Shown here piece by piece: positions 1 through 27,378 of a stretch of 43,920 nt of DNA. Positions within the stretch are counted from its first letter, which is position 1. Each line of letters opens with the position of its first letter. The notes beneath the pieces are model-generated. The model was not told where the DNA came from. It searched no databases and was given only the letters and a program-made list of their open reading frames with translations. Source of the DNA: PVC group bacterium (GTDB lineage Bacteria; Verrucomicrobiota; Kiritimatiellia; PWTM01); NCBI GenBank assembly GCA_003563855.1, contig PWTM01000131.1:1-43920 (forward strand), written 5' to 3'. A program made the position numbers and the translations under genes.

Positions 1-120
1 ATACCGCATTGACGGGGCCTGGGGCCGATGTAGTTCGCGGCAAAGTTGACGGATACGTTAGCTCCGGTGTAGTTTGCGAGTAAGCTGACGCCGTAGTCGA
101 TGGTGGGCAGTATGGTCGCG

Positions 121-876
121 ATGTCGTTTCCGCACGAGAATCTATCCGTATACCGAAAAGCCCTCGATTTCTTCGGTGGGATTCAACGGCAGGTAGCCGC
201 GTGGAGCAGACGGCACGTGTTTGTAGATCATCTGATACGTGCGGCGGAGAGCATACTCTTCAATTTGGTGGAGGGCGTGCGACTGCGTGCTACGGATAAG
301 AAGGTGATCACTCTCGACTACGCCATCGGTTCGGTTCTGGAGTGTGCGGCCTGTATGGACATCGCGATGCTGAAGGGGTTGCTGACCGAGTCTGTTGCGG
401 TTGGACAGAAGACCGCCTTGTTGGAACTCTGCAAGATGCTTGTGGGGCTGCGCAACTCATGGAGCGCACCGCGTGTGGCGGAAGATGCTGTGTCCTATGA
501 AGCCGGCAGCGTGCCGTCGGGCGGATCCGTCATCTTCTATCATGAGACCATGGATCGCTATATCGTGACGCTCGAATTCTATCGATGGCTCATCGCCACA
601 GTGGCCACGCAGCGCCCGCCTGTCGCGTATGCGAAGGCCGCGGACACGTTGGCCACGCGCATTCTGTTGAACATCGCGGAAAGCAACGGACGCTATGCGT
701 CCCTCTCTCGGCAGACCTTTCTCGATACAGCCAATGCGGCGACTGCCAAACTTGCGGTTCTACTCGATATGGGTGTTCGCCGAGGCATCATGGCACAGCC
801 AGAGGTCGCAACAGGAAAGGGGCTTCTGGTACGAGTAGGACAGATGACAGCCAGGAAGGACTACACGACCCCATGA
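121..876 (+). CDS. Four-helix bundle protein (23S rRNA intervening-sequence protein-like), apparently two tandem domains
   Basis: ORF 100..876. MSFPHENLSVYRKALDFF...HLIRAAESILFNLVEG resembles the four-helix bundle/IVP family; a second similar half YHETMDRYIVTLEFYRWL...ATRILLNIAESNGR follows. Start M chosen at 121. Confidence 0.6.
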   Translation: MSFPHENLSVYRKALDFFGGIQRQVAAWSRRHVFVDHLIRAAESILFNLVEGVRLRATDKKVITLDYAIGSVLECAACMDIAMLKGLLTESVAVGQKTALLELCKMLVGLRNSWSAPRVAEDAVSYEAGSVPSGGSVIFYHETMDRYIVTLEFYRWLIATVATQRPPVAYAKAADTLATRILLNIAESNGRYASLSRQTFLDTANAATAKLAVLLDMGVRRGIMAQPEVATGKGLLVRVGQMTARKDYTTP

Positions 877-6261: not shown

Positions 6262-6265
6262 TCCG

Positions 6266-6356
6266 AATGCGGAACGCGGAATGCGGAATGCGGAACGGGG
6301 GACGGGGAAATGCCGAATGCCGGGTGCCGAAGGCCGAAGGCTTCGGAGGCAGAAGG
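6266..6356 (+). repeat. Heptamer array, GCGGAAT family (about 13 units, degenerating rightwards)
   Basis: Strict 7-bp phasing: aatgcgg aacgcgg aatgcgg aatgcgg aacgggg gacgggg aaatgcc gaatgcc gggtgcc gaaggcc gaaggct tcggagg cagaagg; begins 4 nt after the stop codon of the preceding gene. Confidence 0.85.
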
Positions 6357-13918: not shown

Positions 13919-13932
13919 CGTCCCGGTTGAGG

Positions 13933-14051
13933 GTGTCGGGAGTCGGGAGTCGCGTGTCGCGTGTCGCGTGTCGCGTGGCGCGTGGCGCGTGTCGGGTGGC
14001 GGGTATCGGGCGTCGCGTGGCGGATGGCGGATGGCGGGTGTCGGGCGTCTG
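13933..14051 (+). repeat. Heptamer array, GTGTCGG family (17 units)
   Basis: Phased units with no indels: gtgtcgg gagtcgg gagtcgc gtgtcgc x3 gtggcgc x2 gtgtcgg gtggcgg gtatcgg gcgtcgc gtggcgg atggcgg x2 gtgtcgg gcgtctg. Confidence 0.9.
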
Positions 14052-14067
14052 TAGGAGAGGATAGACG

Positions 14068-14277
14068 ATGAGTCGAAATCGAGTTGAGGATTTCGGTCCC
14101 CATCAGGATGCACGGCAGCTCTTCGATCACGTCACGTTGATGGGCGACTACGACACGCCACACCCGACACGCTCCTCACAAGCTCAGGAGACGGGTAGTT
14201 CTTATGGAACACCTGCGCGATGTGACCAAGACCTGCTCACCGACGAGGATATTGAGCAACTCTTGCGGATCAATTGA
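14068..14277 (+). pseudogene. Small ORF, possible deleted remnant of a four-helix bundle/IVP-like protein
   Basis: MSRNRVEDFGPHQDARQLFDHVTLMGDYD...DQDLLTDEDIEQLLRIN; the VEDF..QDARQL start resembles IVP-type proteins, but the body is missing and includes repeat-like sequence (DTPHPTR). Confidence 0.3.
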
Positions 14278-14280
14278 CCC

Positions 14281-14371
14281 ACACGCGACACCCGACACGC
14301 CAAACCCGACACCCGACACCCCAAACCCGACACGCCAAACCCGACACCCGACACCCGAAACCCGAAAGGCC
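14281..14371 (-). repeat. Heptamer array, reverse complement of the GTGTCGG family (13 units)
   Basis: acacgcg acacccg acacgcc aaacccg acacccg acacccc aaacccg acacgcc aaacccg acacccg acacccg aaacccg aaaggcc; ends 3 nt before the GH95 ATG. Confidence 0.9.
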
Positions 14372-14374
14372 GCC

Positions 14375-16945
14375 ATGCCCCCCCACCCTCTTCTCTGGTC
14401 CCGGAACCCTGTTGTCGCGCCGACGGCCGACGACCCGGCGTCGCGCCGGGCGTTCTTCCGCACCTGGGAGTCGTCGGTGTACCCCATCGGCAACGGCCGC
14501 CTCGGTGGGACCGTCTTCGGGGAACCGCGCCGCGAGCGCATCCAGTTCAACGAGGACTCGCTCTGGGTGGGCAACGAGGATTGCACCGGGGGGTACCAGC
14601 CTTTCGGCGACGTGTTCGTCGATTTCCCGCACGGAGAGTTTTCGGAGTACCGCCGCGAGCTGGACCTCGCGCGCGCGGTACAGACGGTCGCCTACACGTC
14701 GGACGGCATCCGCTACCGGCGCGTGTTCTTCGTCAGCCATCCGGCGCAGGTCCTGGTCTGCCGCATCAGCGCGGATCGTCCCGGCGCTTTGCGCGGCCGT
14801 ATCGCGATGGGCAACGAGCACGAGATTCCAGTCCGGGCCGAGGGTGCCGACACGCTGGTGATGCAGGGCGATACCGCGAACTTCTGGTTCTGGCGAAAGC
14901 AACTGGCGGAGCCGCAACGACTGATGGGGGATCGCGCCTACGCTTCCGACAAGATTATTGACCTTACACTCGAAGCCCGCGTCCGCGTGCTCCATGAGGG
15001 CGGCGCCTTGGCCGCGCAGGATGACATGCTGGTCTTCGACGGATGCGATACCGTGACTCTGCTGCTGGCGGCCGACACGGACTACCTGGCCGATCGCGCC
15101 CGGGGCTGGCGCGGCGAACACCCGCACGCGCGCCTCTGCGCCTGGATCGACGCGGCGGCGGCGCGTCCCTTCGCGACGCTGCTCGCGGAGCACGTCGCCG
15201 ACTACCGGTCGTTCGCCGACCGGCTGACGATCGACCTCGGGGCTACCCCGGACGAGGCGGCCGCGCGCCCCACGGCGGAGCGCCGGCAGGCTTACGCGGA
15301 GGCCTGGGAGAACGACGGCGTGCCGCGGGACCGCGAGCTCGAGGCGCTGCTCTACCGGTATGCGCGCTACCTGATGCTCGCGTCTTCGCGCCCCGGCGAG
15401 GGCGCGCTGCCGGCGAACCTGCAGGGCCTCTGGCTCATCAACCGGCATCCCCCGTGGCGCTGCGATTACCACACCGACATCAACGTCCAGATGAATTACT
15501 GGTTCGTCGACGCCGCCAACCTCGCCGAGTGCTTCCAGCCCCTGGCCGAGTGGATCGACTCCATCCGCGAAGTGCGCAAGGAGGAGACCCGCCGGGTCCT
15601 GAACGTGTCGCGCGGCTGGCTGATGCGTTCGGAGAACGGAATCTTCGGCGGCTCCACCTGGCACTTTCAGAAGGGCGACTCGGCCTGGCTCTGCCAGAAC
15701 CTCTGGGACCATTACGCCTTCACGCAGGACCGGGCCTACCTGGAGCGCTATGCCTACCCGGTGATGAGGGAAATCTGCGAGTTCTGGCTCGACCACCTCA
15801 AGGCGCTGCCCGACGGCACGCTCGTAGCGCCCATGGGGCGTTCGCCCGAGCACGGCCCCGTGGACGTGGACGGCGTCACCTACGACCAGGCGCTGTGCTG
15901 GGACCTGTTCACCAACACGATCGAGGCCGCGGAGGCGCTCGGTATCGACGCCGCTTTCCGGGACGAGCTCGCGGAGCGGCGGTCGCGACTGCTCGGACCC
16001 CGGATCGGCCGCTGGGGCCAGCTCCAGGAGTGGATGGAGGATATCGACGATCCGGCGGACGACCACCGGCATATCAACCACCTGATCGGGGTTTACCCGG
16101 GCCGCCAGATCCACCCCCTGACGACCCCCGAATGGGCAGCGGCTGCGCGGGTCGGTCTCGAGGCACGGCGCGACCACGGCCAGGGCCATCCCGCCTGGAG
16201 CCGGGTCTGGAAGGCCTGCCTCTTCGCCCGCCTGCTCGACGGCGAAGCCGCGCACCGCGAACTGGCGCAGACCCTGGCAACCCACGTGCACGGCAACCTG
16301 TGGGCCGTTCATCCGCCATTCCAGATCGACGCCAACTTCGGCTACGCCGCCGCCGTCCACGAGATGCTGGTGCAAAGCCATCTGCAAATGCGGAATGCGG
16401 AATGCGGAATGCGGAACGGGGCGAAGGCGGAAGGCGGAACGCGGAAGGCCGAACAGGGCGAAGGCCTATCTCTTGAGGCGGATCGGCGAGGGGAGGAACC
16501 CCGAATGTGGAATGCGGAATGCGGAATGCGGAACGGGGCGAAGGCGGAAGGCGGAACGCGGAAGGCCGAACAGGGCGAAGGCCTATCTCTTGAGGCGGAT
16601 CGGCGAGGAAAGGAGCCCAGAATGCGGAACGGCAGAGGGGGCGACAGAGCTTCGACGTCCATCATTCCGCATTCCGCATTCCGCATTCCGCATTTACTAC
16701 ACGTCCTCCCCGCCCTGCCGTCGGCCTGGCCGGAAGGGCGGGTGCACGGGCTGCGGGCGCGGGGCGGCTTCGAGCTGGACGTGGAGTGGAAGGAGTGCGC
16801 GCTGACGCGGGCCCGGCTACGGAATCGGCTGGACGCCGCGAATGCCTGCGTGGTCCGATACGGGGCCGGGACGAAATCCCTACGCCTCGCCGCTGGCGCG
16901 GAGATCGAGCTGACAGCGGGCGATATCCCTTCGAGCCCGGAGTGA
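14375..16945 (+). CDS. Glycoside hydrolase family 95-like (alpha-L-fucosidase/alpha-galactosidase type), with in-frame repeat insertion
   Basis: Motifs YPIGNGRLGGTVFGEPRRERIQFNEDSLW, LPANLQGLW, CDYHTDINVQMNYWFVDAANLAECFQPL, DANFGYAAAVHEMLVQSH, LLHVLPALPSAWPEGRVHGLRARGGFELDVEWK. Confidence 0.9.
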   Translation: MPPHPLLWSRNPVVAPTADDPASRRAFFRTWESSVYPIGNGRLGGTVFGEPRRERIQFNEDSLWVGNEDCTGGYQPFGDVFVDFPHGEFSEYRRELDLARAVQTVAYTSDGIRYRRVFFVSHPAQVLVCRISADRPGALRGRIAMGNEHEIPVRAEGADTLVMQGDTANFWFWRKQLAEPQRLMGDRAYASDKIIDLTLEARVRVLHEGGALAAQDDMLVFDGCDTVTLLLAADTDYLADRARGWRGEHPHARLCAWIDAAAARPFATLLAEHVADYRSFADRLTIDLGATPDEAAARPTAERRQAYAEAWENDGVPRDRELEALLYRYARYLMLASSRPGEGALPANLQGLWLINRHPPWRCDYHTDINVQMNYWFVDAANLAECFQPLAEWIDSIREVRKEETRRVLNVSRGWLMRSENGIFGGSTWHFQKGDSAWLCQNLWDHYAFTQDRAYLERYAYPVMREICEFWLDHLKALPDGTLVAPMGRSPEHGPVDVDGVTYDQALCWDLFTNTIEAAEALGIDAAFRDELAERRSRLLGPRIGRWGQLQEWMEDIDDPADDHRHINHLIGVYPGRQIHPLTTPEWAAAARVGLEARRDHGQGHPAWSRVWKACLFARLLDGEAAHRELAQTLATHVHGNLWAVHPPFQIDANFGYAAAVHEMLVQSHLQMRNAECGMRNGAKAEGGTRKAEQGEGLSLEADRRGEEPRMWNAECGMRNGAKAEGGTRKAEQGEGLSLEADRRGKEPRMRNGRGGDRASTSIIPHSAFRIPHLLHVLPALPSAWPEGRVHGLRARGGFELDVEWKECALTRARLRNRLDAANACVVRYGAGTKSLRLAAGAEIELTAGDIPSSPE
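16382..16693 (+). repeat. In-frame repeat insertion within GH95: GCGGAAT heptads, 117-bp direct duplication, terminal inverted heptads
   Basis: aatgcgg x4 from 16387; near-identical 117-bp units with equivalent points at 16411 and 16528; attccgc x4 at 16664..16691 in opposite orientation; peptide (M[RW]NAECGMRNGAKAEGGTRKAEQGEGLSLEADRRG[EK]EPR)x2 ... IPHSAFRIPH. Confidence 0.9.
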
Positions 16946-19360: not shown

Positions 19361-20995
19361 ATGACCGAGACGGTCCGCGATCGCCCCAACGTGCTCCTGT
19401 TCTGCACCGACGAGCAGCGCGCCGACTACCTCGGCTGCATGGGGCATCCCTGGCTCCACACCCCTCACATCGACCGGATCGCCGCCGAAGGGACCTTGTT
19501 CCGGAACTGTTTCTGTTCCTCACCGGTCTGCATGGCGGCCCGGGCGACGATGTTCACGGGCCTGACGAACCGTGCCTCGGGGGTGTACTCGAACGGGGTC
19601 CCGCTGAACCCGCGTATCCCGACCCTTCCGGGCATCCTGGCCGAAGCGGGCTACCGCACCCACTCGGTGGGCAAGCTGCACCTGCAGCCCTGGGGCGGCC
19701 GCACCATCGCCGAGGGGGAGGACACCCGCATCAACCCCGAGCGCCGCATCTACTGGAAATGGCCCGGGCATTGGGAAGGGGGTATCTACACCAAGGCCCC
19801 CGACGACTATTACGGCTTCCAGACGCAAGACTCCGTGGGCGGCCACGTCAACTACGCCTACGGCGACTACGTCACCTGGCTCGAGGCGCACCACCCCGGG
19901 GCCTATGCCGGTTACCGGTGTTCCCTGGAGCATCCGGCCCCCCTGGCGATCGATCCGGAGCTGCACTACAACCACTGGATCGCCGACCGCGCCATCGCCT
20001 TCCTTCGTCGCCATGCGCAGGAATCCGCTCAGCCTTCGGCCGTTCGGAATGCTTCCGCCGTTCCGCATTCCGCACTTGTCCGGCGTAGCCTTGGCGAAGG
20101 CGGATTCCGCATGCCGCATTCGAAACCCTTCTTCCTCTGGTGCTCGTTTCCCGATCCGCACGCGCCGTTCGCGGCGGTGCGGAAGTGGAGCGATTTCTAC
20201 AAGGACGTCGATATCGAGCTCCCGCGGCATGCCCTGGAACTCAGCCCCCACAATCGCAGCGAGACCATGCAGCGGATGGGCAAAGGGGGGAAGGTCTTCG
20301 ATCCCGCCTGGCTTTGCGAATGCATCCGCCAGACCGCCGCCATGGTCTCGCACGTGGACGAGCAGGTCGGCCGCGTATGGAAGGCCCTGGAGGACACCGG
20401 GCTGGCGGACAACACCGTGGTCATGTTCATCTCCGATCACGGCGACCAACTCGGCGAGCACGGGCTGTGCTACAAAATCGATTATCCTTTCGATGGCCAC
20501 ATGCGCGTCCCGTTCGTCGCGAGGATACCGGGCGGACGTCGGGGGCAGGTCGTGGACGATATTGTCAGCCAGCTCGACCTCGTGCCCACCGTGCTGCACA
20601 TGGCCGGCGTGCCCCACCCCGACGACCTGCGGCGCGCGGAAACCTGCGGCGAGGAGGGAAAACCGCCGCCGGCCCTTCCGGGCGAGGCGCTGACCTCCGT
20701 GCTCCGGGACGGCGCGCAGCCCGGCCGGCGGAATGCGCTCGTGGAGCACGACACGATCCGCGGCGCATTCGAGACCGTGCACATGCGGACGCTCGTCACC
20801 AACAACTACAAGCTCGTTTTCTACGCGCCGCTGGGGGAAACGCTGCTCTTCGACCGCCGGAACGATCCTCATGAGCTGACGAACCTGGCCGGCCGGCCGG
20901 AGTGTCGGGACCTGCTCAACGACCTGCTCCGGCAACTGCTGGCCGAGCTGGCGCGCACCGAAATGCCCGCGCACGACCGGCGCACCGGCGCTTGA
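19361..20995 (+). CDS. Sulfatase (arylsulfatase A-like)
   Basis: RPNVLLFCTDEQRADYLGCMGHPWLHTPHIDRIAAEGTLFRNCFCSSPVCMAARATMFTG (C-M-A-A-R formylglycine-type motif); TVVMFISDHGDQLGEHGL. Confidence 0.93.
   Translation: MTETVRDRPNVLLFCTDEQRADYLGCMGHPWLHTPHIDRIAAEGTLFRNCFCSSPVCMAARATMFTGLTNRASGVYSNGVPLNPRIPTLPGILAEAGYRTHSVGKLHLQPWGGRTIAEGEDTRINPERRIYWKWPGHWEGGIYTKAPDDYYGFQTQDSVGGHVNYAYGDYVTWLEAHHPGAYAGYRCSLEHPAPLAIDPELHYNHWIADRAIAFLRRHAQESAQPSAVRNASAVPHSALVRRSLGEGGFRMPHSKPFFLWCSFPDPHAPFAAVRKWSDFYKDVDIELPRHALELSPHNRSETMQRMGKGGKVFDPAWLCECIRQTAAMVSHVDEQVGRVWKALEDTGLADNTVVMFISDHGDQLGEHGLCYKIDYPFDGHMRVPFVARIPGGRRGQVVDDIVSQLDLVPTVLHMAGVPHPDDLRRAETCGEEGKPPPALPGEALTSVLRDGAQPGRRNALVEHDTIRGAFETVHMRTLVTNNYKLVFYAPLGETLLFDRRNDPHELTNLAGRPECRDLLNDLLRQLLAELARTEMPAHDRRTGA
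20028..20130 (+). repeat. In-frame repeat-derived insertion in sulfatase
   Basis: Sequence gttcggaatgcttccgccgttccgcattccgcacttgtccggcgtagccttggcgaaggcggattccgcatgccgcattc encodes AVRNASAVPHSALVRRSLGEGGFRMPHS, between AIAFLRRHA and KPFFLWCSFPDPHAPF. Confidence 0.7.
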
Positions 20996-21029
20996 GGGGA
21001 AAGCGCGGAGCGCGCCGAATGCGGAACGG

Positions 21030-27092: not shown

Positions 27093-27154
27093 GTGAGTGA
27101 GTGGGTGTGTGAGTGAGTGGGTGTGTGGGTTTGTGGGTTTGTGGGTGTGTGGGG
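27093..27154 (+). repeat. Octamer array GTG[A/G]GT[G/T][A/T] (about 8 units)
   Basis: gtgagtga gtgggtgt gtgagtga gtgggtgt gtgggttt gtgggttt gtgggtgt gtgggg. Confidence 0.85.
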
Positions 27155-27196
27155 AGGAGCTACCGCTCGCGCCATTCCCTTTTCCAGAGTCCTGTC

Positions 27197-27237
27197 GGTC
27201 GACGATGAGGTTCGACGATTACGGTCGACGAGACTCC
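27197..27237 (+). repeat. 13-bp array, copy 1 (GAtnaGGTtCGAC-like)
   Basis: GGTCGAC GATGAGGTTCGAC GATTACGGTCGAC GAGACTCC. Confidence 0.75.
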
Positions 27238-27240
27238 CCC

Positions 27241-27285
27241 ACACACCCACTCACCCACACACCCGACACCCGTCACCCGTCACCT
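27241..27285 (-). repeat. Mixed octamer-to-heptamer array (reverse orientation)
   Basis: acacaccc actcaccc acacaccc gacaccc gtcaccc gtcacct; unit length changes from 8 to 7 within one array. Confidence 0.8.
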
Positions 27286-27292
27286 GCCACGC

Positions 27293-27339
27293 GAGTACGG
27301 TCGACGAGTAGGTTCGACGAGTACGGTCGATGAGTCTCC
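27293..27339 (+). repeat. 13-bp array, copy 2 (GAGTACGGTCGAC)
   Basis: GAGTACGGTCGAC GAGTAGGTTCGAC GAGTACGGTCGAT GAGTCTCC; same orientation as copy 1. Confidence 0.8.
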
Positions 27340-27357
27340 TCCGCTGCCCCGCCCACC

Positions 27358-27378
27358 GCTCCTCGCTCCTCGCTCCCC
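27358..27378 (-). repeat. Heptamer array GCTCCTC (3 units; reverse complement of the GAGCGAG family)
   Basis: gctcctc gctcctc gctcccc. Confidence 0.7.

Follow-up and report, generated by a model that had tools for sequence, protein, structure and literature searches.

Introduction

Palindromic repeats that lie in frame within protein genes have been described as RPEs and as intragenic REPs, in Rickettsia and Opitutus (PMC10969869, PMC3733652). The insert analysed here, in a sulfatase gene, resembles these repeats, which are likewise short, palindromic and in frame, occur in protein genes unrelated to each other and seem to be tolerated, and the alignments given below place an in-frame palindromic repeat within the protein gene, as for RPEs. 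RPE families have a consensus of about 100–150 bp, and by this general description the insert is set apart in that its arms are heptamer arrays with a changing unit and its palindrome is unrelated.

The second system for comparison is the intervening sequence (IVS) of Coxiella, which has been described as selfish (PMC4990558). Its inverted ends are cut by RNase III, and it carries an S23p ORF with tandem heptamers of the unit GACAGAT next to it. The IVS/S23p element of 23S rRNA (Coxiella, Leptospira) has the architecture of the full elements found here, but these lie between protein genes and not in rRNA; the sulfatase insert differs from it in having no ORF and in being located in a protein gene rather than in 23S rRNA. 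Intergenic heptamer arrays are also documented for Beggiatoaceae (TAACTGA) and Xanthomonas (GGGAATC, often as inverted pairs), where the portions of the reports used here treat them as regulatory or as G-quadruplex repeats and contain no link to S23 (PMC4679880, PMC4692102). Long inverted ends composed of short tandem repeats also characterise the Foldback (FB, Galileo) transposons of Drosophila (PMC3573991), which are an analogy only: they are eukaryotic, far longer, and show no homology to the elements described here.

An in-frame insert in a sulfatase gene

The window (the whole stretch of DNA analysed, 43,920 nucleotides) derives from a 3.27 Mb draft genome that is about 90% complete. The sulfatase gene and its insert were located as follows:

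19361–20995, forward strand: sulfatase gene encoding 544 aa, with the active-site motif CMAAR and a retained SDHGDQLGEHG stretch (PF00884, E 3.7e-51; translation and alignment)
20015–20125, forward strand: span within which the in-frame insert of about 32–33 codons (96–99 nt) lies (alignments)

The nearest named relatives of the sulfatase come from two MAGs, one of Kiritimatiellae (61% identity) and one of Lentisphaerae (52%). Residues F214 and F257 are spaced by 42 residues, compared to 10 in homologue L045 and 9 in homologues L046–L049, and all five of these homologues lack the insert in the alignments. The sequence-only reading, which had placed about 30 extra in-frame codons at 20028–20130, is thus confirmed with slightly shifted borders, and an equally long loop free of repeats, the case that would have spoken against it, was not seen among the aligned homologues: the one with a longer loop (L044, see below) carries repeat DNA there too.

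In the alignment, columns that are invariant near the active site were retained. In an AlphaFold model (mean pLDDT 60.6, pTM 0.70, based on a thin alignment), the insert was placed between a helix (residues 203–223) and a strand (257–264), and residues 225–253 had a pLDDT of about 28 and were predicted to be disordered. Because of this predicted position and disorder and the kept active-site columns, the insert is probably a disordered, tolerated surface loop. Of the earlier proposal that such elements are tolerated or selected for, the first half is therefore retained as probable, and nothing tested points to selection. No known RNA families were detected across the insert. A heptamer remnant lies directly behind the sulfatase stop (21015–21028).

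Repeat composition of the insert

The insert is repeat DNA, consisting of nested inverted arms, heptamer units, and a palindrome of 24–26 bp:

20020–20028, forward strand: outer inverted arm GGAATCCGC, pairing with GCGGATTCC at 20100–20108 (DNA and RNA folds)
20045–20072, forward strand: inner inverted pair of CGGAATGC (20045–20052) and GCATTCCG (20065–20072) (DNA and RNA folds)
20060–20073, forward strand: heptamers GTTCCGC-ATTCCGC, in the span of the inner inverted pair region
20079–20104, forward strand: palindrome TCCGGCGTAGCCTTGGCGAAGGCGGA (core copies in the genome; 24-mer in class genomes)
20104–20124, forward strand: heptamers ATTCCGC ATGCCGC ATTCGAA, the first two at 20104–20117 (motif census and sequence)

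The heptamers of the (A/G)TTCCGC kind thus form two pairs. The palindrome core GTAGCCTTGGCGAAGGCGG was found in 13 copies in the genome at up to two mismatches (control: 0). Of 193 class genomes, 20, representing 19 genera, contained the exact 24-mer CCGCCGTAGCCTTGGCGAAGGCGG (reversed control: 0). Within the window, CATTCCGCATTCCG occurred 34 times at up to three mismatches, against 6.1 expected, and the phrase CCGCCGTTCCGCATTCCGCA was common to the insert and to intergenic repeats of its own genome (seen in L292). Since the fold of the whole insert was only modestly better than that of shuffled sequences (z of −1.8 for DNA and −1.3 for RNA), the claim rests on repeat identity and not on folding energy.

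The insert in the GH95 gene and other arrays in the window

The insertion of a repeat family into the sulfatase had been read as the second in-frame event in neighbouring enzyme genes, and this holds, the first being located in a GH95 gene upstream:

14204–16945, forward strand: GH95 fucosidase-like ORF, host of the first insert (PF22124, E 4.2e-136; real start probably near 14375)
16386–16695, forward strand: in-frame heptamer-armed insert in the GH95 gene (310 bp; arms at 16386–16416 and 16665–16695)
13931–14049, reverse strand: GTGTCGG-family heptamer array, the left arm of an inverted pair that encloses no gene (period-7 census, inverted-partner test)
14281–14367, forward strand: CCGACAC-family heptamer array, the right arm of this pair, which spans 13931–14367 (period-7 census, inverted-partner test)
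6265–6307, forward strand: intergenic GGAATGC heptamer array (motif search, period-7 census)

The arms of the GH95 insert are 31 bp each, built of heptamers and 100% complementary; they enclose an internal 117 bp tandem duplication, and the insert sits between the catalytic domain (ending at aa 722) and the C-terminal domain (starting at aa 832). Both inserts share the GGAATGC/GCATTCC heptamer and GGCGAAGGCGG, and to this extent the assignment to the same repeat family stands; arms and architecture differ, with long perfect arms and a duplication in the GH95 insert versus short arms and a palindrome in the sulfatase insert. Neither contains an ORF. Terminal inverted repeats without an ORF are also found in MITEs, but no target-site duplication was visible and no parent with the same arms was found among the GGAATGC loci examined. 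Directly upstream of the GH95 gene, the intergenic GTGTCGG arms (13931–14049 and 14281–14367) are 232 nt apart. An intergenic cluster of period-7/8 arrays with TCGACGAG-type repeats was noted at 27119–27376; repeats of this type also accompany heptamer arrays at other places in the genome (L284, L289).

A different heptamer in the orthologous loop

In the closest sulfatase orthologue (L044, 61% identity), the loop at the insert position is about 21 residues longer. These extra residues are encoded by the heptamer repeat GTGTCGGGTGTCGGGTGTCG, comprising three direct units only, and the unit is GTGTCGG, differing from that in the sulfatase of the window. GTGTCGG is also the heptamer of the intergenic pair upstream of the window's GH95 gene. 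One sulfatase loop thus carries two different heptamers in two orthologues, which on comparison of the two sequences are independent inserts. A further heptamer array (GTCTTCA, L044 4626–4657) lies directly behind the stop of the orthologous gene.

Heptamer arrays across the genome

The heptamer census covered 0.88 Mb of the 3.27 Mb genome and yielded period-7 arrays of many unit sequences. Most GGAATGC arrays were solitary and not arranged as inverted pairs. On neither strand does any frame of the units GGAATGC and GTGTCGG contain a stop, so that translation can pass through their arrays whatever the frame; AACGTTC, which is the most frequent heptamer in the genome, contains a stop on one strand. 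Among the motif sites examined in this genome, only the GH95 and sulfatase inserts lie within a Pfam-defined enzyme with domains on both sides, and a scan of ten ORFs at the other intragenic motif sites returned no Pfam domains on both sides; intragenic copies are therefore exceptional. To survive within a gene, a copy has only to be open, to keep the frame and to sit in a tolerant loop; selection for the element is not required. A second abundant short tandem repeat of the sampled 0.88 Mb is the hexamer GAGGAC (28 arrays), which often adjoins a long palindromic element holding most GTAGCCTTGGCGAAGGCGG copies.

An ordinary heptanucleotide microsatellite that expanded in a tolerant loop through replication slippage, independently of any mobile element, would be in keeping with the commonness of heptamer arrays in this genome and the mostly solitary GGAATGC ones, with the over-representation of heptamer SSRs in bacteria (PMC4692102), and with the three direct units of L044. 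It does not, however, agree with the just two adjacent units per side of the sulfatase insert, its inverted arms and multi-copy 24-mer palindrome, or the perfect 31 bp inverted copies forming the GH95 arms. Slippage makes no inverted partners, but these were observed within 600 bp at 29 of 70 array sites compared to 2 of 159 random segments, and we regard this explanation as unlikely.

We consider it slightly less likely still that the insert represents a REP (or TIR) element of the GTAG type, mobilised by a tyrosine transposase (RAYT/TIRYT), with the heptamers being incidental. The core GTAGCCTTGGCGAAGGC forms a hairpin with a GTAG tag, the genome has 13 Y1_Tnp matches, and GTAG REPs are known in frame in genes of Opitutus terrae (PMC3733652); against this, the motif was found at none of the 13 Y1_Tnp loci (genome about 90% complete), GTAG occurs in 5 of the 13 core copies with GAAG in the remainder, pairing in the commoner copies runs past GTAG (CCGCC/GGCGG), and the inverted repeats that flank the Y1_Tnp genes are different ones without periodicity. 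Such non-periodic inverted flanks were seen at 5 of 9 correctly tested Y1 genes, among the Y1 loci being one with a perfect 33 bp inverted repeat around the transposase gene (L052 802–834 and 1905–1937).

A long variable loop of the sulfatase subfamily, unrelated to repeats, would fit the longer loop of the closest orthologue L044 but is very improbable, as both long loops are repeat DNA known from elsewhere and the five other homologues have 9–10 residues at this position.

S23/IVP genes bracketed by heptamer arms

The reading favoured here, a remnant of an S23-type element, draws on the surroundings of genes of the PF05635 family (S23/23S rRNA intervening-sequence four-helix-bundle family), of which the genome has 12 matches. 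One of them, close to the beginning of the contig, is flanked by weak inverted arms (26–80 and 947–1001):

100–876, forward strand: double four-helix-bundle (S23/IVP, TIGR02436) gene (PF05635; TIGR02436, E 4.3e-14)

Six of eight testable distinct S23 genes of this genome had inverted short-period brackets scoring 24–33, compared to a maximum of 21 at 200 random places (counts excluding L165, L051, L057, and L058, for which the test position was wrong). The family was present in 170 of 193 class genomes. At 30 class loci, lag-7 identity of the S23 flanks was about 0.356 versus about 0.259 at other lags (z about 20), whereas control flanks were at about 0.26 with no lag-7 excess and Y1_Tnp flanks likewise lacked a lag-7 signal. 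Comparing the two flanks of these 30 loci gave median scores of 13 for inverted, 7.25 for direct, and 7.5 for mismatched loci, and a bracket score of at least 18 was reached by 12 of 30 loci but by none of 203 control windows. On plasmids of Cyanobacteria, Gemmatimonadota, and Bacteroidota, 10 of 10 S23 genes were bracketed by inverted heptamers, each element with its own unit; for a few class and plasmid loci close to the ends of contigs the test position was displaced, an error that could lower but not raise the association. Plasmid elements were located inside operons, for example cas6/cas4, cas10/Cmr3 gene, and nrdB/nrdA. On the Anabaena sp. 90 plasmid pANA02 (L325 500–850), a very long GGTGACA/GGGAACA array lies between cas6 and the four-helix-bundle gene.

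Inverted heptamer arrays whose unit differs per element thus bracket the S23 genes at most of the class loci as well as on the plasmids, and these comparisons of flanking sequences suggest that such arms normally enclose a little-studied mobile element with an S23 gene. A limited search of the open-access literature returned no paper that connects heptamer arrays with S23 genes more generally. One S23 protein of this genome matches the DGR protein Avd below the cut-off (E 3e-8), RVT_1 has one match in the genome, and the solved structure of the S23 family is 2gsc (Xanthomonas XCC0516).

Empty sites and arms-only derivatives

The G128 element is absent from five relatives (G070, G061, G031, G042, and G189), in which the joined flanks match contiguously (86% identity to the joined G128 flanks for the empty site of G070), and in G016 the arms are kept at this site with another gene between them. 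The element of the Nostoc plasmid C052 is present in N. edaphicum and absent in C057 (96% identity), and the nrdB/nrdA S23 element is absent from Calothrix NIES-4105. No target-site duplication was seen at the element sites. At the site that is occupied by the full S23 element in C052 and empty in C057, the plasmid pNsp_c of Nostoc sp. ATCC 53789 (L338 410–745) has heptamer arms without the gene, and this arms-only derivative is proposed as a model for the GH95 and sulfatase inserts.

Origin of the inserts

Taken together, it is slightly more likely than not that the sulfatase insert is a gene-less, heptamer-armed fragment of an S23-type mobile element. It would be joined to another common repeat, the palindrome, and the whole would have become fixed, in frame, in a loop at the enzyme surface. 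The full element consists of an inverted 7-bp array, an S23/IVP gene, and the complementary array; such elements insert between genes and can lose their gene, and inside genes survival would be restricted to frame-keeping, stop-free copies in a tolerant loop. Movement might, speculatively, depend on the S23/Avd-like protein, assisted in trans by a reverse transcriptase or by some other enzyme.

Short-unit tandem inverted ends, as in S23/IVS elements, are represented by the perfect 31 bp arms of the GH95 insert; the inverted arms of the sulfatase insert are short, with two heptamers per side. The sulfatase insert has no PF05635 ORF between its arms and is not located in 23S rRNA; by analogy, it may be filed as an arms-only derivative of an S23/IVS-type element and not as a member. 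Its descent from such an element is inferred from shared anatomy, since the searches returned no S23 gene flanked by GGAATGC arms and most GGAATGC arrays are solitary. At the loci examined in this and related genomes, no S23 gene lay within about 1.5 kb of GGAATGC arrays, and none was found near the 24-mer CCGCCGTAGCCTTGGCGAAGGCGG. These results count against the reading as an S23 fragment, as do the shortness of the sulfatase arms, a fold that barely exceeds shuffled sequences, a palindrome that these searches did not link to S23 elements, and the absence of a visible target-site duplication.

Implications

In-frame palindromic inserts were already known; the present one is built of heptamers, with two different heptamers at one orthologous loop. 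The association of S23 genes with heptamer arrays is the less expected and wider result. It leads to a more tentative proposal, to which we give slightly less than even weight, that the scattered heptamer arrays of bacteria from many phyla may be arms or gene-less remains of one foldback-like class of mobile elements whose sole gene encodes an S23/Avd-like four-helix-bundle protein, and that the sulfatase and GH95 inserts would be such remains within enzymes. If this wider association is true, it would give an origin for the unexplained heptamer arrays of bacteria, the IVS of 23S rRNA would become one particular form of a more general type of mobile element, and a function would be provided for the S23 four-helix-bundle family, which is weakly similar to Avd of diversity-generating retroelements.
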